DNA from: a virus
DNA length: 20,138 nucleotides
IMG/VR virus record: IMGVR_UViG_3300025127_000381
Coordinates: 1 to 20,138 of that record
Strand: one strand, 5' to 3'
Positions 3,174 to 18,864 of this stretch are shown piece by piece. The translations under genes and the position numbers were made by a program. The first letter of the stretch is position 1; the number at the start of each line of letters is the position of its first letter. The notes under the pieces were generated by a model. The model was not told the DNA's origin. It made no database searches and worked only from the letters and a program-made list of their open reading frames with translations.

Positions 3174-3184
3174 ACTATTTATTA
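3174..3184 (+). promoter_or_regulatory. Putative late promoter motif, copy 3 (ACTATTTATTA)
   Basis: An exact ACTATTTATTA in the 84-base gap before the sheath gene, identical to the copy before the tape measure. It is 52 bases from the start codon, farther than the other copies, leaving a longer untranslated leader. That leader holds a small hairpin (AGTTC 3192-3196 with GAACT 3208-3212) and a Shine-Dalgarno AAGGAG (3222-3227). Confidence 0.55.
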
Positions 3185-3191
3185 GAGAAAA

Positions 3192-3212
3192 AGTTCACCA
3201 AAATTTTGAACT
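3192..3212 (+). other. Small inverted repeat in the sheath leader
   Basis: AGTTC and GAACT can form a 5-bp stem around an 11-base AT-rich loop that includes the palindrome AAAATTTT. It lies between promoter motif copy 3 and the sheath ribosome-binding site. It could protect the 5' end of an abundant message, but a 5-bp stem in AT-rich DNA may be chance. Confidence 0.3.
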
Positions 3213-3236
3213 ACCCTAATTAAGGAGCGTTTTAAC

Positions 3237-6200
3237 ATGGCAGTTGATAAGTTTAAGTTTGTTTCACCAGGAGTTTTCATCGATGAAGTTGATGAATCCG
3301 CCATCCCAGAATTGCCTGAGAGAATGGGGCCTCTCATTATTGGCCGGTTTCAGAAAGGACCAGCCCATCGACCGGTTCAGGTCAACTCTTTCAAAGAGTT
3401 TGTAGCTACATTTGGCAACCCATCAGATGGTAACGCATCAGGCGACATATTTCGCTCAGGTGTTCAAAAAGCTCCAACTTATGCAGCATATGCAGCTCAA
3501 GCTTGGTTGCGCAATAACTCACCTTGTACAGTTTACAGAGTTTTAGGGCAGCAACATCGCGATGCGGATGCAACAACTGGCGTCGCCGGCTGGACAACAG
3601 CAAATACACCTGACGACGACATCTTAATCGCAGGCGGCGCATATGGCATGTTCCTCATTCCATCTCACTCCGCGGGCCAGCCGGTCACAGGAACTCTGGC
3701 TGCTGTTTGGTATGTTGAAGACGGAGGTATTGTCTTATCAGGTGTCCATCGAACAGGCAGCTCTCACACCACCGACGTTGTTGCGAACAATGATGGTAGT
3801 TCATTTGACGCTGCCGGAAGCTTTGTTAAATCAACTAATGGTGATTTTACAGCTAAGCTAATCAGAGGCGACGGCAGCGTCGCTCAAGGCGTAGCTGGAA
3901 CGGGTATTACAGATGAGACAATTACGTTTAACTTTAATAGAGATAGTAAGAACTTTATTAGAAAAGCGTTTAATACAGACCCAACACGAACGAATAGTGC
4001 CATCACATATACTGCTGGTGGAACATATTCAACAAAAAATTATTGGCTAGGCGAGACTTTCGAGTCAGCAACTCCAGCTGGCGGCGACTCGCAGCTATCT
4101 AGCGGCTCAACAAAAACAAGTGCCGGCGACGCATTATTTGGCGTTATAGTGCAGCTTACAAATGGCGACACTGCTGGCATTAAATGGCACAATCATCAGC
4201 AAAATGCACGTGCCGCATCAACTGGCTGGTTTATTTCTCAAGACAGAAGAGGCTCAACAACAGCTGGCTTTGATCCTGTGGTGCACACAGAAAAATTGTT
4301 TAAGATTCACGCTCTAGGCGGCGCTCAAGCTGGAGATGGAACTGATCCAGGCACTGGCGAGGCAGGAAACAGAGATATCAAAATTTCTCTTACCGACATT
4401 AAAGTATCACCTAATAATTTTAATGATTATGCTACATTTAGTGTGTTGGTTAGAGATGCTAAAGACACAGACAATAATCCGATTATTTTGGAGAGATTTT
4501 CAAGTGTTAATCTTAACCCAGCTTCTGTTAACTACATTGCAAGAGTTATTGGTGATAGAAAATATCGTTATGACGCAACTAGTAAAACAATTGACTTTCT
4601 TGGAACATACCCTAACAACTCTAAACTAATCAGAGTTGAGGTTAGTCCGATTGTTGACGCAGCCGGCGCTAGAGAATTAGTACCATTTGGAGTTTTTGGT
4701 CCACACGTACCAAGAGATCTTAATTTTGGCACTGGATCAACCGACACTGATCTTGATACAGGCGCTGATCCACACATTTGGATCCAAGGATCTGGCTCTC
4801 TTCCATCTGGCTCCCTTATGCCTGGCCATGGTGCCGATGTACCAGGCGGCATCGGTGGCGCGGCTTCAATATTCCATACAGGCTCCAACCCTCTCGGCAC
4901 CGACCACATGCCACTAAGACTTACATTCCCAAGAACTAGAGTTAGGGTTTCTTCTTCTGAAGGTTCCTTGGTTGTTTCTAGTAGAGCATTCTTTGGATAT
5001 CAATCAAATATCCCTGGCAGCAAGCGCTATGAGCCTACAAACATTGACTTGCATAGAGGCAAGCCTCTTAACCTAGATCCACAAGTTTCAAGCTCACAAA
5101 CACAGCTTTCTTGGGTGTTTACACTCGATGATGTGTTGCCAGCTCACAATGTTGAGGGGCATGCTATATACATCTCGGGATCCCGAGCAGCTAATACTTC
5201 TTATACCGCAATTAGTGGTACAGTTTCAGGCGCACTTGATCAAGGATACAATAAGTTTACGTCTCCAATGTTTGGTGGCTTTGACGGATTTAATATCAAA
5301 GAAGCAGAGCCACTCAGAAACAGCCTAATAAATGCTGGCACAACATCTGAAACAAACAGCTACGTGTTTAACAGCATCAAGAAGGCGATTGACGTCACGA
5401 CTGACCCCGAGTATGTAGAGTTTGACTTAGCTACCATTCCTGGTTGCACAAACGACTCTCTTAACACACAACTAATTTCATCGTGTGAAGAAAGAGCTGA
5501 TGCTTTGGCTATTGTTGACCTTAGAAATAATTATCAGCCGCCTCATGAGCACAATGATGAGCCTAATGCTACGACTAGGCTTGGCCAAGTTGATGGTGGC
5601 TCCGGTGTGGTTGACACTCTTAAGAGCTTAAATGTAAATTCTAGTTATGGCTGCACTTTCTACCCATTCGTTCAGATTAGAGACACCATTAACGACTCTG
5701 TTCTGTACGTGCCGCCGTCTGTCGTTGCCCTTGGAACAATGTCTTCCTCGCAGCGCAGATCTGCAGTATGGTTTGCACCAGCAGGCTTTACTAGAGGCGG
5801 CTTAAGCGAAGGATCAGCCGGCTTACCAGTGATTGGTGTTCGTGAGCGCTTAACATCTGAAAAGCGTGATAAGCTCTACGAGGCTAACATTAACCCAATT
5901 GCATCATTCCCAGCAGAGGGTATCGTGGTGTTTGGCCAAAAGACCTTGCAGCTTACACCATCTGCCCTGGATAGAATCAACGTTAGAAGACTTCTTATCT
6001 TTGTTAAGAAAGAAATCTCTAGAATTGCATCTACACTTCTCTTTGAGCAAAATGTCCAAAATACTTGGAACAGATTCAAGGGAAGAGTGGAGCCATTCTT
6101 AAGCGGTGTTCAGGCAGGCTTGGGTCTTACAGACTTCCGTGTTGTTCTTGACGATACAACAACAACACCTGATTTGGTTGATAGAAATGTTTTATACGCT

Positions 6201-6287
6201 AAGATTTTCTTAAGACCAGCAAGATCAATTGAATTTATCGCTCTTGACTTTATCGTCAGCAAAAGCGGTGCTTCTTTTGATGATTAA
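3237..6287 (+). CDS. gp18: Contractile tail sheath protein (gp18-like), oversized
   Basis: The product is 1016 residues against 659 for T4 gp18. The N-terminus is typical of sheath proteins: VSPGVFIDEVDESAIP (9-24) followed by GPLIIGRFQKGP (31-42) and a segment ending in SFKEFVATFGNP. The C-terminal domain is also clear: VVFGQKTL near 896-903, INVRRLLIFVKKEIS near 915-930, then WNRFKGRVEPFL and the closing ARSIEFIALDFIVSKSG. The region from about 110 to 640, rich in Gly, Ser, Thr and Asp, is much longer than in T4 and probably forms extra surface-exposed domains. The protein polymerises around the tail tube and contracts to drive it through the envelope. Preceded by AAGGAG and promoter motif copy 3; followed by the tube gene. 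Confidence 0.95.
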   Translation: MAVDKFKFVSPGVFIDEVDESAIPELPERMGPLIIGRFQKGPAHRPVQVNSFKEFVATFGNPSDGNASGDIFRSGVQKAPTYAAYAAQAWLRNNSPCTVYRVLGQQHRDADATTGVAGWTTANTPDDDILIAGGAYGMFLIPSHSAGQPVTGTLAAVWYVEDGGIVLSGVHRTGSSHTTDVVANNDGSSFDAAGSFVKSTNGDFTAKLIRGDGSVAQGVAGTGITDETITFNFNRDSKNFIRKAFNTDPTRTNSAITYTAGGTYSTKNYWLGETFESATPAGGDSQLSSGSTKTSAGDALFGVIVQLTNGDTAGIKWHNHQQNARAASTGWFISQDRRGSTTAGFDPVVHTEKLFKIHALGGAQAGDGTDPGTGEAGNRDIKISLTDIKVSPNNFNDYATFSVLVRDAKDTDNNPIILERFSSVNLNPASVNYIARVIGDRKYRYDATSKTIDFLGTYPNNSKLIRVEVSPIVDAAGARELVPFGVFGPHVPRDLNFGTGSTDTDLDTGADPHIWIQGSGSLPSGSLMPGHGADVPGGIGGAASIFHTGSNPLGTDHMPLRLTFPRTRVRVSSSEGSLVVSSRAFFGYQSNIPGSKRYEPTNIDLHRGKPLNLDPQVSSSQTQLSWVFTLDDVLPAHNVEGHAIYISGSRAANTSYTAISGTVSGALDQGYNKFTSPMFGGFDGFNIKEAEPLRNSLINAGTTSETNSYVFNSIKKAIDVTTDPEYVEFDLATIPGCTNDSLNTQLISSCEERADALAIVDLRNNYQPPHEHNDEPNATTRLGQVDGGSGVVDTLKSLNVNSSYGCTFYPFVQIRDTINDSVLYVPPSVVALGTMSSSQRRSAVWFAPAGFTRGGLSEGSAGLPVIGVRERLTSEKRDKLYEANINPIASFPAEGIVVFGQKTLQLTPSALDRINVRRLLIFVKKEISRIASTLLFEQNVQNTWNRFKGRVEPFLSGVQAGLGLTDFRVVLDDTTTTPDLVDRNVLYAKIFLRPARSIEFIALDFIVSKSGASFDD

Positions 6288-6330: not shown

Positions 6331-6927
6331 ATGGCTTTTTTTAACCAAAGTACATTCCAGCCCAAGCGTCAGTTTAGATTTTTAATTAACTTTTCACAGA
6401 TTGCTGATATTGATTTTATGTGCACAAAAGCGGCTAAGCCTACATATAATTTAGGTGATGGTGTTAGTCATAAAGTTTTAAATCACACGTTTAAGTTCCC
6501 TGGCACTGTAACTTGGACAGATATCGAAGTGGGCTTTATTGACGCTATCGAGCCGAATGTTGGATCCAAATTCTATAATATGCTTGTAAATGCTGGCTAT
6601 GTCGCACCCGAGCGCTCTGAAAACCTACTTCAAGGCATTACAAAAGCATCTTCCGTTGGAAGCCTCGGCACAGTTAAGATTTTGCAATTAGACGGTGGTA
6701 CCATTGCTACGCCTGCTGATCCAGGAGCTGCTCAAGGCGCAGCTGGTCCTGTGAACATAATCGAAGAATGGACACTCACAAACGCATATCTTAAGCAAGT
6801 TAGTTTTGGTAATAACTTAGCTTACGCTGAGCAAGGAATCGTTAATATTGGTGCAACTATCGTATACGATTGGGCTCAATACAACGGAACACCACAAATA
6901 TATGCAGGATCTGCTGCTATTACCTAA
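6331..6927 (+). CDS. gp19: Tail tube protein (gp19-like)
   Basis: The product is 198 residues against 163 for T4 gp19. The start follows TTAGGAG with good spacing. The family pattern is visible: an N-terminal FNQSTFQPKRQFRFLINF (4-21), CTKAAKPTYNLGDGVSHKVLNHTFKFPG (31-58, positions given with key residues only) leading to WTDIEVGFID, and a C-terminal part with EEWTLTNAYLKQVSFG (143-158) and an ending NIGATIVYDWAQY. An Ala/Gly/Pro-rich insertion at about 127-140 accounts for part of the extra length. It stacks as rings inside the sheath, with length set by the tape measure encoded downstream. It sits between the sheath and the gp26-family gene. Confidence 0.93.
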   Translation: MAFFNQSTFQPKRQFRFLINFSQIADIDFMCTKAAKPTYNLGDGVSHKVLNHTFKFPGTVTWTDIEVGFIDAIEPNVGSKFYNMLVNAGYVAPERSENLLQGITKASSVGSLGTVKILQLDGGTIATPADPGAAQGAAGPVNIIEEWTLTNAYLKQVSFGNNLAYAEQGIVNIGATIVYDWAQYNGTPQIYAGSAAIT

Positions 6928-6939
6928 TAAGAGGTTAAA

Positions 6940-7779
6940 ATGAGAAACAATCAGCGTCGTGTGCACCACGCGCCGAATCGCCCTACCCCGAAAGCTAAAA
7001 GGGCTAGCTCGCGTTCAATTCTTCATTATGAAGTTCCAACAGAATTTGTTGATTTGCCGTCACGCGGTATTTTTTATGATGAGAACCATCCATTCCATCA
7101 AAAAGAGTCAATTGAAATACGCATGATGACTGCAAAAGAAGAAGACATACTATCTTCTCAGTCTTTAATAACAAAAGGTATTGCACTTGATCGTTTTTTT
7201 GAAAGTATAATAGTTGAAGATGTCGACACAAAGACACTTCTAAATGGTGATCGCTCTGCAATAATGATAGCAGCTAGAATATCTGGATATGGCTTTGCTT
7301 ACGAAGCAAACATAACTTGTCCAAATTGTGGCAACAAAAGCAAAATGGTTTTTAATTTGCAGGATAAAACAGTTAATGATGCATTCTCTGACAAACAGTA
7401 TATGTCCGATAATAATATTGTTATTAATTCTGAGGGCTTAATTGAGCTTGATTTACCAATTAGTAAATTTGTAGTTTTTTTAAAAATGCTGAACAGCTAT
7501 GATCAAGAGGAGTATCTATCTATTCTTGCAGACGATACTGACACAACTATTACCACGTCACTCAATTCAATAATTCACAGAATTAACGATTGTGAAGACA
7601 GAGAACAAATCGCAACTGCCTTGCAAAACTTACCAGCTAAAGATTCCAAATATATTCGTGATATATTTTCCAGCTTAACACCAAAAGTAGAGCTAAAAAG
7701 AGATTTTGCATGCGGAAATTGCTTTCATAAACAGTCTATGGAGGTGCCGCTTTCTGCGGCGTTTTTTTGGCCTAAGTGA
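6940..7779 (+). CDS. gp26-family baseplate hub assembly / tail assembly chaperone-like protein
   Basis: The product is 279 residues. AAGAGG stands just before the start, which lies 12 bases after the tube stop. Residues 1-25 are basic and disordered. From 29 the T4 baseplate-assembly (gp26) pattern begins: HYEVPTEFVDLPSRG (29-43), RMMTAKEEDIL (61-71), then ISGYGFAYEANITCPNC (114-130). Two CxxC pairs, C127/C130 and C258/C261, suggest a zinc ribbon. T4 gp26 is about 208 residues and helps assemble the baseplate hub without remaining in it in large amounts. The position between tube and tape measure is the usual place of tail assembly chaperones. The last codons contain a GC hairpin and seven T's (7746-7768), and a +1/-2 shift there would append 56 residues from the frame ending at 7939. 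Confidence 0.82.
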   Translation: MRNNQRRVHHAPNRPTPKAKRASSRSILHYEVPTEFVDLPSRGIFYDENHPFHQKESIEIRMMTAKEEDILSSQSLITKGIALDRFFESIIVEDVDTKTLLNGDRSAIMIAARISGYGFAYEANITCPNCGNKSKMVFNLQDKTVNDAFSDKQYMSDNNIVINSEGLIELDLPISKFVVFLKMLNSYDQEEYLSILADDTDTTITTSLNSIIHRINDCEDREQIATALQNLPAKDSKYIRDIFSSLTPKVELKRDFACGNCFHKQSMEVPLSAAFFWPK

Positions 7780-7939
7780 AGAGTATTTAGAGTCTGTTTA
7801 TAACGAGATATTTTCACTGCAGTATTATGGCATCTTCAGCTTCTCAGAGGCGTATTGTCTTCCAGTTGGTCTTCGCCAGTGGTATTTAAGCAGGCTCAAG
7901 CAGCAGTTTGAAAAAGAATCTGAGGCCATGAGAAGATAG
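7706..7939 (+). CDS. Overlapping downstream frame, probable frameshift extension of the gp26-like protein
   Basis: As an independent frame it would begin at ATG 7706, inside the upstream gene, giving 77 residues with only a weak AGAG-type site. The first 21 residues merely overlap the zinc-ribbon codons. The protein-like part starts after the T run: 56 residues from GLSEEYLESVYNEIF (codon 7769) through EAYCLPVGLRQWYLSRLKQQ to the stop at 7937-7939. There is no ATG, GTG or TTG start between 7709 and the end of the T run in this frame. The simplest reading is that it is made as a fusion of 276+56=332 residues after a +1 (or -2) shift on TTTTTTT, as gpG-T style tail chaperones are in other phages. 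An alternative is a homopolymer sequencing error in one continuous gene. Confidence 0.6.
   Translation: MHAEIAFINSLWRCRFLRRFFGLSEEYLESVYNEIFSLQYYGIFSFSEAYCLPVGLRQWYLSRLKQQFEKESEAMRR
7746..7768 (+). other. Hairpin plus T7 run: candidate frameshift/slippage site, terminator-like
   Basis: GCCGC (7746-7750) and GCGGC (7756-7760) form a perfect 5-bp stem with loop TTTCT, then one G and seven T's (7762-7768). By shape this is an intrinsic terminator, but it lies inside the last codons of the gp26-like gene. Reading is gcg gcg ttt ttt tgg in the zero frame. Moving one base forward, or two back, enters the downstream frame at GGC 7769; a -1 shift meets TAA at 7773. A GC hairpin followed by a homopolymer is also the arrangement that favours RNA polymerase slippage. 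Confidence 0.55.
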
Positions 7940-7994: not shown

Positions 7995-10100
7995 ATGGAT
8001 GAAGATGAAGAGACAACATTAGAAGAGAAATTTGAAAGGGCTCAAGAAGTCATTCGAAAGCTAAGCGAGGCCAAAGAAGCGCTAAACGATGAGCAGCGTA
8101 CACAGCTAAACTTAGCAAAAGAATTTCTTGGCGATCTGGCAGAGGCTGACGTAAAATTACAAGATCTTGATATAAAGCTTCAACAATATACACAAAATCG
8201 TACCGAAGGCTTGAGAGTCAAAGCAGCAGAGATCGAGAAAACAAAAGAAGATATTAAAGAAATGGAAAAGCTCGCTAATTTTTCTAAAACCATAGAAAGC
8301 GAGATACAAAATGCACTTGTAAAAGCCAATCAGATGGTAGAAAATGTTGCGCGCATTCAAGGGGAAACCGTTCAAGCAGCAGCTAATACGACGCAAAGCA
8401 CAACTACAGCGTCTGGCGAGGCTGTAAAGACTTTTGGCCGCAGCGTCGAGGCCACCGGCATAGCTGCCAAAGAAATTCTAAAACAATTTGGAGACATCAA
8501 TGACAAAATTCCCTTGCTTGCTGCTGCTTTTGCAGGCGGTATTAATTTAGAAAAACCTCTCAGATTAATTAAAGATTCAGCAGCCGAGTTTGATAAATTT
8601 GACGCTTCAATTAACAGAATAATTTTAACACAAGAAGGATTTGCTAGCAATCTTGTTGCTAGTTCTGCAAATATAGAAGAATTTAAAAAGAAATTTCCTG
8701 ATGCTGCTAAAGAGCTAGAGTCTCTTGGTGGTTTATTGCAGGGCGCTGGTTTAAGATCTGAAGATTTTAAAGATGTGCTCAGCAGTTTATTAGATGAAGG
8801 TGTTTTGTTTAATGCTGCTTTGGTTTCTGGTAATGAGGCTTCAACAGCTTCAACAGTAAATTTGTTTGCAGCCTTAAAACAGCTTGGTGTACCTTCAAAA
8901 ACTTTAGCTGAATTGTCAACTACACTTGGCGCTGGCTTAGGATTCACAGCTCAAGAGTCGAACAATTTTACAAGAGAAATTCTTAAGCTCTCTCAAGAAA
9001 CTGGCCTTGGAATCAAAGCGTTCAAAAATGCAGAATCTAGCTTAGGCATGCTCCAGGGTGAGAGCGATAATGTAGCTGAATCATTCAAGGAACTGTTGAT
9101 AGTACAGGCCGCAACTGGCATTGAAACTGAAAAACTTATTAACAAATTTGGCAAATTTAAAAATGTCGATGAAGCTGCGCAAATAACTCAAAAACTTAAT
9201 GCTCTCTTAGGTGATACTGTATTTGACTTTCAAGAAATAGTTGATACACCTATTGAGGATAGATTTAAAGTGCTCAGTGAGCAGCTGCGCAGCGCGAATA
9301 TGGACTTCAACGATCTTGGTTTTCAAACAAGGTCTGCAATCGCAGAAATACTTGGATTTGAAGTTGGAGAAACTGCAATCCTTCTAGGCGATCGCGCCCT
9401 AGAAAATTATGGAAAAATAAGTGAAGGCGTAACTGGTCTAGCAGCAAGCAATAAGGAATTAGAAGTAATTCTTGAACAGGGTAAAGATCTTAATCAAAAG
9501 ATCACCGACGGCATTCAAGAAAAAGCTATCCCCGCTGGCGTTCAGCTTAGTGATAAAATCCGCATCGCCGGAACAGACTTGAAAAACATTCTCGGATCAG
9601 CGTTTGAAATGCTTGAGGGAAAACGTGAATTCAGAGACGATCCCTTGGCTTTGTTAATGGGCGGTGTAGGCGGCGCTGAATTTTTAATGAAAAATCTTAC
9701 TAAGATTGAAAAATTTGCTAAAGAACGCACCACCGCTGCGGCCACCGATCTCGTCGCGTCCCTCGCCGGTACAGCGCTATTGTCGGAAACTGAGATTGTC
9801 GAGACGGCTGGCGGAGCTATACAGGTAGTTGGCCAGACGCTCAAAGACGTCGATGACCCGACCACAGCGGCAGGTAAAGCTGCAGCATTGGTCGAAGCAG
9901 CCGACCTCTCCGGTTTCATGGGCCAGTTTGGAGAATCCTTTGTTGATGCTTTTGAAAGCATAAAAAACATCGTTAATGTCGATGTCAACGTCGATGCTGA
10001 AATCGATGGCACAAAGCTTGATGTGAAAACAAGAAATATTGCTAAAGACGTTTATGAGGAATTAAAAAAGAAAGAACAGCGCGCACAGAGTACAAGATAA
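7995..10100 (+). CDS. Tail tape measure protein
   Basis: The product is 701 residues, against 590 for T4 gp29. Start at ATG 7995 with GAGGG eight bases upstream. Residues about 5-120 are a highly charged, heptad-like coiled coil. Residues 160-500 are Ala/Leu-rich helices with several short hydrophobic patches (for example IPLLAAAFAGG near 172-182). A Gly-rich hydrophobic segment LALLMGGVGGAEFLM lies near 550-565. The C-terminus alternates VDVNVDAEIDG and ends in a basic helix. Length, helix content and position after tube and chaperone-like genes identify it as the ruler around which the tube assembles. With the usual rule of about 0.15 nm per residue, 701 residues imply a tail near 105 nm. 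No lysozyme or peptidase motif was seen. Confidence 0.85.
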   Translation: MDEDEETTLEEKFERAQEVIRKLSEAKEALNDEQRTQLNLAKEFLGDLAEADVKLQDLDIKLQQYTQNRTEGLRVKAAEIEKTKEDIKEMEKLANFSKTIESEIQNALVKANQMVENVARIQGETVQAAANTTQSTTTASGEAVKTFGRSVEATGIAAKEILKQFGDINDKIPLLAAAFAGGINLEKPLRLIKDSAAEFDKFDASINRIILTQEGFASNLVASSANIEEFKKKFPDAAKELESLGGLLQGAGLRSEDFKDVLSSLLDEGVLFNAALVSGNEASTASTVNLFAALKQLGVPSKTLAELSTTLGAGLGFTAQESNNFTREILKLSQETGLGIKAFKNAESSLGMLQGESDNVAESFKELLIVQAATGIETEKLINKFGKFKNVDEAAQITQKLNALLGDTVFDFQEIVDTPIEDRFKVLSEQLRSANMDFNDLGFQTRSAIAEILGFEVGETAILLGDRALENYGKISEGVTGLAASNKELEVILEQGKDLNQKITDGIQEKAIPAGVQLSDKIRIAGTDLKNILGSAFEMLEGKREFRDDPLALLMGGVGGAEFLMKNLTKIEKFAKERTTAAATDLVASLAGTALLSETEIVETAGGAIQVVGQTLKDVDDPTTAAGKAAALVEAADLSGFMGQFGESFVDAFESIKNIVNVDVNVDAEIDGTKLDVKTRNIAKDVYEELKKKEQRAQSTR

Positions 10101-15614: not shown

Positions 15615-16793
15615 GTGACTTTTCAACTTATGGATACTAAACATGAGTGTATTGCTGTCTATAAGGATGGTAAGATACATTCTGATATTGATTCTGTAGA
15701 TCTTGATAGAACTTGGAGCCCTTCGGCAAACTTACCCAACGCACAAGCACAGTATGCTAGTATCTACGCTCTTGGTAAAGGTTTGGATAAGGTTTGTCCA
15801 GAGAACCTGCAAGACAGGTGGATTAAGTGCAGTAACAAGGCACAAGCATTTTTTAAGTCTTTTCATAACGCAAAAGTAGATTTAAACGATGTTTGTTTCT
15901 ATGATTTGGTGCCTAAAAAATTTTTATTGGATTACTATGGTATCAAAAGTGATATTACCGATTATGTATTTGAGAACTTTGAAAAACCTCAAAATTACGA
16001 TTTTCTCGTAAGCTTACATTTGTTAACACAAAAAATTAAAAAACAGCCTCTAAAAATAAACATTAAAAACTTAAAGTTTAGCGACTCTAAGGTTCGCAAC
16101 AGCTTAAGTAAAGTAAAGCATGCTAGCCGTTTTATAGATTACAATATGTGGGGGACAGTGACCGGTCGTTTGGCTACCAATCCAAGCAGTTTTCCTATCT
16201 TGACACTTAACAAGGAACTTCGTGGCTGTATTGAGCCTAATAACGACTGCTTTGTTGAGCTAGATTTCAACTCTGCTGAATTAAGGGTTTTATTGGCCCT
16301 TTTAGGGCAGGAGCAGCCCAAAGAAGACATTCACTCCTGGATCGCACGTAACGTGTTTATGGGCAAGTATACTAGGGCTGAGAGCAAAGTCAAGACATTT
16401 GCTTGGCTATACAACCCAAAGGCTCGCAATAAGAAACTAAACGAGAAGTTTGACAGAGATAGTCTGCTAGAAAAGCATTACGACGTTGAGACGATCACAA
16501 CTCCTTTTGGCCGCTCAATCAGCTGCACCAAAGATAAAGCGCTTAACTACTTAATACAAAGTACAACAAGCGATATGTTCTTAACAAATGCCTTTAAAAT
16601 TGATACAATATTAAGAAATAGAAAGTCGTATATTGCTTTTTGCATTCACGACAGTCTAGTGTTGGATTTTTCAAAAGAAGATAAAGATCTTCTCAACTCT
16701 ATTATCAAAGAGTTTTCAGGCACCAAGTTTGGTGAGTTTAGGTCCAACCTAGGTTTAGGCAAGAACTTTGGCGATATGAGAGAAATAAAATGA
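15615..16793 (+). CDS. Compact family-A DNA polymerase-like protein
   Basis: The product is 392 residues, far shorter than Pol I (about 930) or T7 polymerase (about 700). GTG 15615 is preceded by AAAGGGG; the alternative ATG at 15630 has no site. The polymerase signatures are in order: TGRLATNP (183-190) with R203; motif A LDFNSAELRV with D217, E222 and R224; DIHSWIA (238-244); finger motif B with R254, K258, F262 and Y266; TPFGRS (296-301); NYLIQSTTSD with Q315; and motif C HDS with D346. Both catalytic aspartates are present. Motif B ends YN, not YG, and motif C reads HDS, not HDE. Residues 1-175 show no 3'-5' exonuclease motifs. It probably extends DNA in repair or replication without proofreading. 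T4 itself uses a family-B polymerase. Confidence 0.88.
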   Translation: MTFQLMDTKHECIAVYKDGKIHSDIDSVDLDRTWSPSANLPNAQAQYASIYALGKGLDKVCPENLQDRWIKCSNKAQAFFKSFHNAKVDLNDVCFYDLVPKKFLLDYYGIKSDITDYVFENFEKPQNYDFLVSLHLLTQKIKKQPLKINIKNLKFSDSKVRNSLSKVKHASRFIDYNMWGTVTGRLATNPSSFPILTLNKELRGCIEPNNDCFVELDFNSAELRVLLALLGQEQPKEDIHSWIARNVFMGKYTRAESKVKTFAWLYNPKARNKKLNEKFDRDSLLEKHYDVETITTPFGRSISCTKDKALNYLIQSTTSDMFLTNAFKIDTILRNRKSYIAFCIHDSLVLDFSKEDKDLLNSIIKEFSGTKFGEFRSNLGLGKNFGDMREIK

Positions 16794-17620
16794 ACATTGT
16801 TGGTTTAGGAAACGCTGGTTGTCAAATAGCAAAAAACTTTGATGAGTATGGGATGTATAAGACATTTTGTATTGATACTGAGAACAAAGATTACAAAAAC
16901 TACGTAGCTATAAAACCGCAATCTTCGCATGAGGATTATGAATCAAAATATAAGCGACTCGCACTAGCAAAATGCAAAGGTGACACCATGTTTATATTGT
17001 CTGGCGCTGGTGATGTGAGCGGCGCTGCCCTGCGTGTGCTTGACCAACTAAAAACAAACAATATTGAAATTGTATATGTAAAGCCAGATATTGGACAGCT
17101 CTCAGAAGAACAAATATTAAAGGAAAGACTTTGTTTCGGAGTGCTGCAACAATACACTCGTTCTGCTCTTTTTAGTAATATGTTTATTATTGATAATGTG
17201 TGTGTAGAACAAGTGCTAGGCTCTGTGTCCTTAAAAAACTATTGGAAAGACATTAATAACGTAATATCCAGCACAATTCATATGTCTAACGTTTTTAAGC
17301 ACACAGAGCCGCTTTTAACAACCATGTCACGCAAGAGAGAAACTGTGCGGATAGGAACTTATGGTGTTGTAAATAGTGAGACTGGAAAAGAAAAGTTATT
17401 TTATGACTTGCAGAATACTAGACTAAAAAGTTACTTTTATAGCTTAACAGAAGATGCGCTTGATAAGAAAGATTCTCTTTCTAATATTAGGTTGTTTGTG
17501 GAGCAGCAAAAGCAAGATAAATTAGATGTGTGTTTTTCTATTTTTCCAACCTCTTACAATAAAGATTATGTGTATTCTCAGCACTTTGCGTCTTTCATTC
17601 AAGAACAAACCATGATTTAG
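16790..17620 (+). CDS. Divergent tubulin/FtsZ-superfamily-like protein
   Basis: The product is 276 residues, shorter than PhuZ (about 315) and FtsZ (about 380). Its ATG overlaps the polymerase stop (ATGA), so translation is coupled. The N-terminus MNIVGLGNAGCQIAKNF has the glycine loop of the superfamily (5-11), and FILSGAGDVSGAALRVLDQL (68-87) corresponds to the tubulin signature GGGTGTG before its helix. Here the signature reads SGAGDVSG, with fewer glycines. The T7-loop region is probably KNYWKDINNVIS (149-160), where an Asn and an Asp are kept. Phage tubulins form filaments that centre or move replicating DNA. Whether this one binds GTP or polymerises cannot be told; the changed loop may mean altered nucleotide use. 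Confidence 0.65.
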   Translation: MNIVGLGNAGCQIAKNFDEYGMYKTFCIDTENKDYKNYVAIKPQSSHEDYESKYKRLALAKCKGDTMFILSGAGDVSGAALRVLDQLKTNNIEIVYVKPDIGQLSEEQILKERLCFGVLQQYTRSALFSNMFIIDNVCVEQVLGSVSLKNYWKDINNVISSTIHMSNVFKHTEPLLTTMSRKRETVRIGTYGVVNSETGKEKLFYDLQNTRLKSYFYSLTEDALDKKDSLSNIRLFVEQQKQDKLDVCFSIFPTSYNKDYVYSQHFASFIQEQTMI

Positions 17621-18519: not shown

Positions 18520-18864
18520 ATGTATTTTATGAAGAATTTGATGATTTTTACGGTTTGTTTAGCAATTGTGATCGCTTGTAACGCTACACCTGGTACTATT
18601 ACTGAGGCGAACACTACCACTACAACTAATGTAGAGGCTAGTACTGTCAGCAATACTGCTGCTACGACTGGCACAACAGCCACAACGGAGGGCGCAACTT
18701 CTAATAGCGCTTGTGACTGCTCTGCTTGCCCCGGCACAATTGGTAATATTGATAACACAACCACAACAGGTACAACTACCACAACTACTGGTACGTCTAA
18801 TACTACTAATACAGTGACAGGCACAACCAATACAACTGGTACAACTGCCACAACAACAAACTAA
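18520..18864 (+). CDS. Small threonine-rich lipoprotein
   Basis: The product is 114 residues from ATG 18520, which has AAGGA seven bases upstream; the frame is open farther upstream, but that part overlaps gp32. ATG 18529 is a second possible start. Residues 1-19 form a signal peptide (Lys, then a hydrophobic stretch) and IVIAC (16-20) is a lipobox with Cys20 as the lipidated residue. The mature part is about 45% Thr, otherwise mainly Asn, Gly, Ala and Ser, with a single cysteine cluster CDCSAC (65-70). It has no other domain. It should be attached to an outer or inner membrane of the host cell. Phage lipoproteins are often superinfection-exclusion factors, so that is a possible role, not a shown one. 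It is placed between two DNA-recombination genes. Confidence 0.75.
   Translation: MYFMKNLMIFTVCLAIVIACNATPGTITEANTTTTTNVEASTVSNTAATTGTTATTEGATSNSACDCSACPGTIGNIDNTTTTGTTTTTTGTSNTTNTVTGTTNTTGTTATTTN

Follow-up and report, generated by a model that had tools for sequence, protein, structure and literature searches.

A conserved slip site in gp26-family genes of T4-type phages suggests two forms of a tail assembly chaperone made by +1 ribosomal frameshifting

We consider it likely, with a probability of about 0.8, that the gp26-family gene of an environmental phage encodes a tail assembly chaperone in two forms by +1 ribosomal frameshifting on UUU-U before UGG. The gene was analysed in the window, i.e., the whole stretch of 20,138 nucleotides of viral DNA taken from an IMG/VR record, and in its relatives. 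The original prediction of a programmed shift into a second frame, giving the long form of the chaperone, is strongly supported by the sequence comparison, in which the relatives conserve the extension, keep the seven T's and have no start of their own for the second frame. Frameshifting in tail assembly chaperones is already known; what appears to be new is a +1 shift in the gp26 family, at a UUU-UGG that distant relatives have conserved, with a covarying hairpin upstream and a direction of shift that changes within the family.

Two reading frames at the end of the gp26-family gene

The short form, encoded at 6940-7779 on the plus strand, like the hairpin, the slip site, the extension and the two neighbouring genes, has 279 amino acids ending in ...FFWPK*, and its zero frame closes with GCG GCG TTT TTT TGG CCT AAG TGA (stop at 7777-7779). 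The hairpin at 7746-7760, a putative upstream stimulator, is built from the stem halves GCCGC (7746-7750) and GCGGC (7756-7760) around the loop TTTCT (7751-7755) and stands 1 nt before the T run, a single G (7761) preceding the seven T's (7762-7768). At the putative slip site TTT TTT TGG (7762-7770) the P-site UUU could re-pair with UUU in the +1 frame while the zero-frame UGG is in the A site. From GGC at 7769 onwards the +1 frame has no stop before TAG at 7937-7939, and this C-terminal extension of 56 codons (7769-7939 with its stop) would, together with the upstream part, give a long form of 332 amino acids. The -1 frame meets a stop after one codon; it is open, as a lambda-type -1 heptamer would need, only in the metagenomic contigs L032 and LR756511 and in Agrobacterium phage Atu_ph07. 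The sole start codon of any kind in the nearby +1 frame is a TTG at 7706, inside the gp26-family gene. Every element of the predicted sequence layout is confirmed by these positions, namely the GC hairpin and seven T's at the 3' end of the gene, the 56 open codons (7769-7936) with no plausible start and the immediate stop after a -1 shift.

Gene identity, context and protein models

The product belongs to the T4_baseplate family PF12322, which it matches at E 6e-17 with 62.5 bits (curated cut-off 24.5) over profile positions 13-218 of 219, and it matches phrog_150 at E 1.6e-18 over positions 10-233 of 282. The window, a fragment of an environmental virus, carries a T4-type contractile-tail module that comprises a large sheath protein, a tail tube protein, the gp26-family gene and a probable tape measure gene. 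The tail tube protein (6331-6927; phrog_4542 tail tube, E 1.7e-15) is encoded immediately upstream. The open reading frame immediately downstream (7995-10100), which has no family match of its own in PHROG and Pfam profile searches, is assigned by position as the probable tape measure protein, and a tape measure is annotated at the corresponding place in Flavobacterium phage immuto, Bacillus phage SP-15 and Listeria phage LIS04. The gene thus holds the position of a tail assembly chaperone between the major tail tube and tape measure genes, as had been foreseen.

The short form and the extension were modelled separately. The AlphaFold2 model of the short form, based on 29 sequences, reached a pLDDT of 85.7, and its top hit among solved structures in VIA-align was the HK97 tail assembly chaperone 2ob9, with Z 6.0 over 85 residues (next hit 2.9), a Z below 8 not being conclusive alone. 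Foldseek gave E 4.6, and among viral models the short form matched T4-like baseplate hub proteins, including that of SP-15. The extension modelled alone consists of three helices (pLDDT 94.9), and Foldseek found no significant match for it among viral models.

Several other genes of the window deserve mention. The tail sheath protein (3237-6287) has 1016 amino acids, roughly double the length of the sheath profile phrog_23, and probably carries a large inserted domain, since the profile match covers both ends of the protein. A family A DNA polymerase (15615-16793) of only 392 amino acids starts with GTG, and the polymerase part alone was matched. A 276-residue product (16790-17620) starting MNIVGLGNAGCQIAKNF... 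resembles, on visual inspection, a nucleotide-binding protein of the FtsZ/tubulin type or another type and had no Pfam match at E 0.1. A small threonine-rich protein (18520-18864) with a signal-peptide-like start and a lipobox-like Cys (MKNLMIFTVCLAIVIACNATPG) lies inside a longer TTG-start frame and hit no Pfam family above the cut-off.

Conservation of the extension and of the slip codons

A scan of IMG/VR yielded 80 environmental loci with 31-42% amino acid identity to the window's protein. In 79 of them a homologous +1 extension of 61-81 codons opens at the same two Phe codons, the exception being L032, so that the second frame is more than the product of chance. The slip site is likewise kept in 79 of the 80, down to 31% identity and with a few TTC TTT TGG variants among them, and the request to look for both frames and the T run in related phages was therefore answered in the affirmative. 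The 3' end of the gene is TTTTTTTGGCCT in nearly all relatives; it is TTCTTTTGGCCT in L035, L036, L063, L065 and L066, TTTTTTTGGTCT in L009 and L010, and different again in L032. A second frame with its own start, which would have spoken against a shift, was looked for and not found in the relatives, many of which have a +1 frame that is open merely 3-5 codons above the site and holds no usable start codon.

The extension begins with about G-L-[ST]-x-[ED]-[YD] in the relatives and carries the conserved motif G-L...Y..P...R; the aligned fusion proteins keep F275, F276, G277 and L278, and Y305, P308 and R312 are invariant. Differences between the extensions fall on positions 1, 2 and 3 of the +1-frame codons in 24, 14 and 61% of cases (40 independent pairs), a pattern that indicates protein-level selection on this frame. 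The codons of the site are conserved beyond codon usage: the first Phe is TTT in 66 of 67 non-redundant relatives (47 expected from the codon usage of the same genes), and the second is TTT in all 54 relatives with Phe there (38.6 expected; p about 10^-8.5). Throughout the +1 members the P-site codon can re-pair in the +1 frame, as UUU-U, UUU-C or CUU-U. At the level of sequence, a short form and a C-terminally extended long form are thus encoded across a conserved shift site.

Known phages gave no match in a nucleotide search with the window sequence. A scan of bacterial and archaeal genomes found a single match, a 4-kb contig in a Thaumarchaeota bin (JACAFS010000073.1), which is probably a mis-binned phage contig.

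Distant phages and the direction of the shift

The same arrangement was found in isolated phages. Microcystis phage Mel-JY01 and Rhodothermus phage RM378 have a +1 extension after the short form at TTT TTT TGG, RM378 at only 21% identity (site TTTTTTTGG), and Flavobacterium phage immuto has one at TTT CTT TGG. The branch of immuto uses TTTCTTTGG in 30 loci, TTTCTATGG in 4 and TTTCTTTAC in 1, and the +1 extension is read through there too. Bacillus phage SP-15, Listeria phage LIS04 and Streptococcus phage GXN1 also have a +1 extension, their exact slip codon being less certain. Members with the extension in the -1 frame, at T TTT TTC, are Agrobacterium phage Atu_ph07 and the metagenomic contigs L032 and LR756511.

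A profile of the extension, for which sequences of the window and immuto branches alone were used, was run on 1,162 six-frame open reading frames from the loci of other phages and T4-like phages. All eight matches above the inclusion threshold were the frame directly after gp26, two of them in the -1 frame (L032 and LR756511). The E values were 1.6e-27 for Mel-JY01, 4e-23 for immuto, 6e-17 for LR756508 and 4e-9 for L032, and weaker for LIS04 (7e-6), SP-15 (1e-4), GXN1 (1e-4) and LR756511 (8e-4); in this set of 1,162 frames Atu_ph07 scored below significance and RM378 was absent from the list of matches. Since the profile matches frames after gp26 in both the +1 and the -1 register, the sequences indicate one homologous extension reached by shifts of differing direction, the point of the shift in every case coinciding with the same Phe-Phe position or adjoining it. 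The isolate-phage records that we checked annotate no frameshift; some list fragments of the extension as hypothetical proteins, e.g., at 3309-3428 of the SP-15 locus (L084), 3177-3353 of the RM378 locus (L086) and 3234-3470 of the Mel-JY01 locus (L082).

The upstream hairpin

Against randomisation of synonymous codons the hairpin of the window scores z -3.0; against plain dinucleotide shuffles it is unremarkable (z -1.34). Across the wider clade (42 non-redundant members), the 30 nt that precede the site form a more stable structure than their synonymous versions (mean z -2.0), compared with -0.26 and -0.10 in two control windows further upstream and -0.62 in the same test on the immuto branch. 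The slip site follows the 3' base of the stem at a distance of 0-2 nt in 34 of 41 cases, and the pairing register varies between sub-clades. In one sub-clade a pair of two synonymous third positions is G-C in 7, U-A in 4 and C-G in 3 of 15 sequences; in another, one pair is G-C in 10, A-U in 9 and G-U in 8 of 29. In both sets, none of 500 shuffles reached the covariation score, a comparison inflated by the relatedness of the sequences, and slid controls scored lower. Two conserved frames, a conserved site and a hairpin independent of codon choice form the basis of our reading at the sequence level.

The hairpin is predicted to stimulate the shift and probably does so in the window's clade. It looks like a clade-specific addition, since RM378 keeps the seven T's without a clear hairpin; RM378 and the immuto branch have little or none. 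A terminator scan of the window did not list 7746-7760, although RNA folding finds the hairpin, and Rfam returned nothing above the gathering score. No stimulator is evident directly downstream of the site: over the first 40 nt, folding is not convincingly stronger than that of synonymous codons (mean z -0.5). Further on, 51-110 nt downstream of the site, the mean fold z against synonymous randomisation is -1.27 in 42 relatives of the window clade, where a second RNA element within the extension is possible.

Proposed mechanism and alternatives

We infer the shift itself, its direction in the window, the role of the hairpin and the functions of the proteins along the following lines. Most ribosomes would stop at 7777-7779 and release the 279-residue short form. 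In a fraction of ribosomes, the tRNA-Phe paired with the second UUU would slip one base forward from UUU-U to UUU while UGG in the A site is yet to be decoded; GGC would be read next, and translation would continue for 56 codons to the 332-residue long form. In the window's clade, the hairpin re-forming just behind the ribosome, its stem 0-2 nt upstream, would probably push the ribosome forward. By analogy with lambda gpG/gpGT, both forms would coat the tape measure protein and the extension would recruit tail tube subunits; binding to the tape measure and tube proteins and absence from mature virions are expected on the same analogy. Two points sit less easily with this scheme. As a rule, +1 shifting depends on a codon that is decoded slowly in the A site, and UGG is not evidently rare. 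Moreover, a hairpin 0-2 nt from the slip site is within the ribosome footprint.

The layout of hairpin and T run also suits an intrinsic terminator or slippage of RNA polymerase, the latter having been suggested together with a +1 or -2 ribosomal shift. In transcriptional slippage the polymerase, helped by the hairpin, would drop one U or add two at U7, and the edited mRNA would encode the long form. Consistent with this, the hairpin of the window's clade adjoins U7 and is more stable than synonymous randomisation predicts, and hairpin-assisted slippage has been described (Penno et al. 2015, as cited in PMC5009743). A long homopolymer would then be expected wherever the second frame is used, but it is broken in relatives that keep the extension: TTCTTTTGG occurs in three lineages (L035; L036; L063, L065 and L066), of which two or more have the hairpin; TTTCTTTGG or TTTCTATGG stands at the site in the immuto branch; and other family members use canonical -1 sites. 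We therefore regard transcriptional slippage as an unlikely source of the long form, though it could operate or contribute in the members with seven T's; in the window's clade the terminator-like layout keeps it in consideration.

A ribosomal shift of -2 at U7, as in phage Mu, would reach the same frame and produce FFF-GLS, and seven T's permit re-pairing two bases back. Re-pairing would be poor on TTC TTT T, TTT CTT T and TTT CTA T, all of which keep the extension, which makes a -2 shift decidedly improbable. The TTCTTTTGG members of the window clade and the variants of the immuto branch show that a long homopolymer is no requirement; the sites left in the TTCTTTTGG, TTTCTTTGG and TTTCTATGG variants are UUU-Y or CUU-U and remain competent for +1. 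Of the mechanisms put forward, the +1 ribosomal shift is thus the most likely, because these relatives keep the extension, and they speak against both -2 shifting and slippage dependent on seven T's as a mechanism shared by the family. Ribosomal frameshifting offers a common explanation, since -2 shifting and polymerase slippage need the T run, +1 shifting needs only UUU-Y or CUU-U, and the -1 members carry U UUU UUC.

Still less probable is that the second frame is a separate small gene or leftover non-coding sequence. Isolated-phage records do annotate extension fragments as separate hypothetical proteins, and there is the TTG at 7706, but a stop closes the +1 frame 3-5 codons above the slip site in many relatives, leaving it no start codon, and the second frame changes like a coding frame and is homologous even between phages whose shifts into it differ. 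An independent gene was rejected on the lack of usable starts in many relatives. Least probable of all is a sequencing or assembly error splitting a continuous gene, for although homopolymers are error-prone, the same seven T's recur in dozens of independent metagenomes and in the isolated phages Mel-JY01 and RM378, and variants without the homopolymer keep the same frame relation.

Relation to T4 gp26 and gp51

T4 gp26 and gp51 belong to the same Pfam family and match the same phrog_150 profile. The match of gp26 ends at position 235, where the short form of the window ends at 233, and that of gp51 runs about 45 positions further to 280, where the +1 fusion of Mel-JY01 ends at 274. Because these end points correspond, gp26 and gp51 appear to be counterparts of the short and long forms, an assignment that rests on the shared profile. 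An HMM comparison of the extension with the C-terminus of gp51 found no significant similarity; a profile comparison with the gp51 tail gave a weak collinear match (P 0.007). In the phage collection, gp51 matched 1,339 records, mostly of enterobacterial T4-like phages.

According to citing papers, gp26 and gp51 were identified as the tail assembly chaperones of T4-like phages by Vladimirov et al. (2022), who are quoted as finding a short and a long gene instead of frameshifting in some T4-like phages (via PMC10885494); another citing paper implies that slippery sites of the polyT type have been noted in short-form chaperone genes of T4-like phages (PMC12846349). In T4-like phages two genes, as reported in PMC10885494, stand against one gene with a shift site in the window. 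The idea that the chaperone system would here be extended to T4-type tails therefore holds insofar as the gp26 family carries the shift, but not as regards the chaperones themselves, already identified as gp26 and gp51 and encoded by two genes in T4.

Shift sites occur within the gp26 family itself, in isolated and environmental phages whose hosts include Microcystis, Flavobacterium, Rhodothermus, Bacillus, Listeria and Agrobacterium. Since they are so widespread, the two-gene arrangement of T4 seems either to have replaced frameshifting or to be one solution among several. We see about an even chance that a natural hairpin re-forming behind the ribosome 0-2 nt upstream drives +1 shifting at UUU-UGG in a large T4-type clade, and that in the course of evolution the chaperone family has moved between +1 shifting, -1 shifting and the use of two genes. 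The shift would explain why small hypothetical proteins, or gaps in the annotation, stand ahead of tape measure genes, and annotators could seek FFWP encoded by TTTTTTTGGCCT at the end of gp26.

Comparison with known frameshift systems

The closest likeness in the slip itself is to E. coli prfB (RF2) and Listeria phage PSA, where a single P-site tRNA slips by +1 onto the overlapping codon. The slip codon of prfB is CUU-U, which is also found in the immuto branch. The window differs in having the sense codon UGG rather than a stop in the A site, and the upstream hairpin instead of a close Shine-Dalgarno stimulator, none of which was seen. According to a 2016 review of recoding, chaperone frameshifting is widely conserved in long-tailed phages 'except T4', with -1, -2 and +1 cases (PMC5009743). 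Like the lambda gpG/gpGT type, which includes P2 E/E', Mu 41/42 and HSTV-2, the gene of the window stands before the tape measure gene and would make two forms by a shift near its 3' end, and the direction of the shift varies among phages in that type as well (PMC5009743); the model of the short form matches the fold of the HK97 member with Z 6.0. Unlike that type, the gene belongs to another sequence family, has a putative +1 site at UUU-UGG instead of the usual -1 heptamer, and carries its hairpin upstream rather than downstream of the slip site. The chaperones of Vandenendeviridae and Andersonviridae likewise have a T-rich site where the short form ends, a conserved second frame and a mis-annotated downstream frame, but shift by -1 at GTTTTT, compared with +1 in the window (PMC12846349). 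For the hairpin, the counterparts are upstream refolding hairpins, namely the SARS-CoV attenuator and that of a yeast reporter, where an upstream hairpin stimulated +1 frameshifting at CUU-CGG-C (PMC3639245). There as in the window the hairpin lies directly 5' of the slip site and is expected to push the ribosome forward, but the one in yeast is an engineered stimulator, whereas that of the window is a natural, covarying, putative phage element and thus a natural candidate for an upstream hairpin acting as a +1 stimulator.
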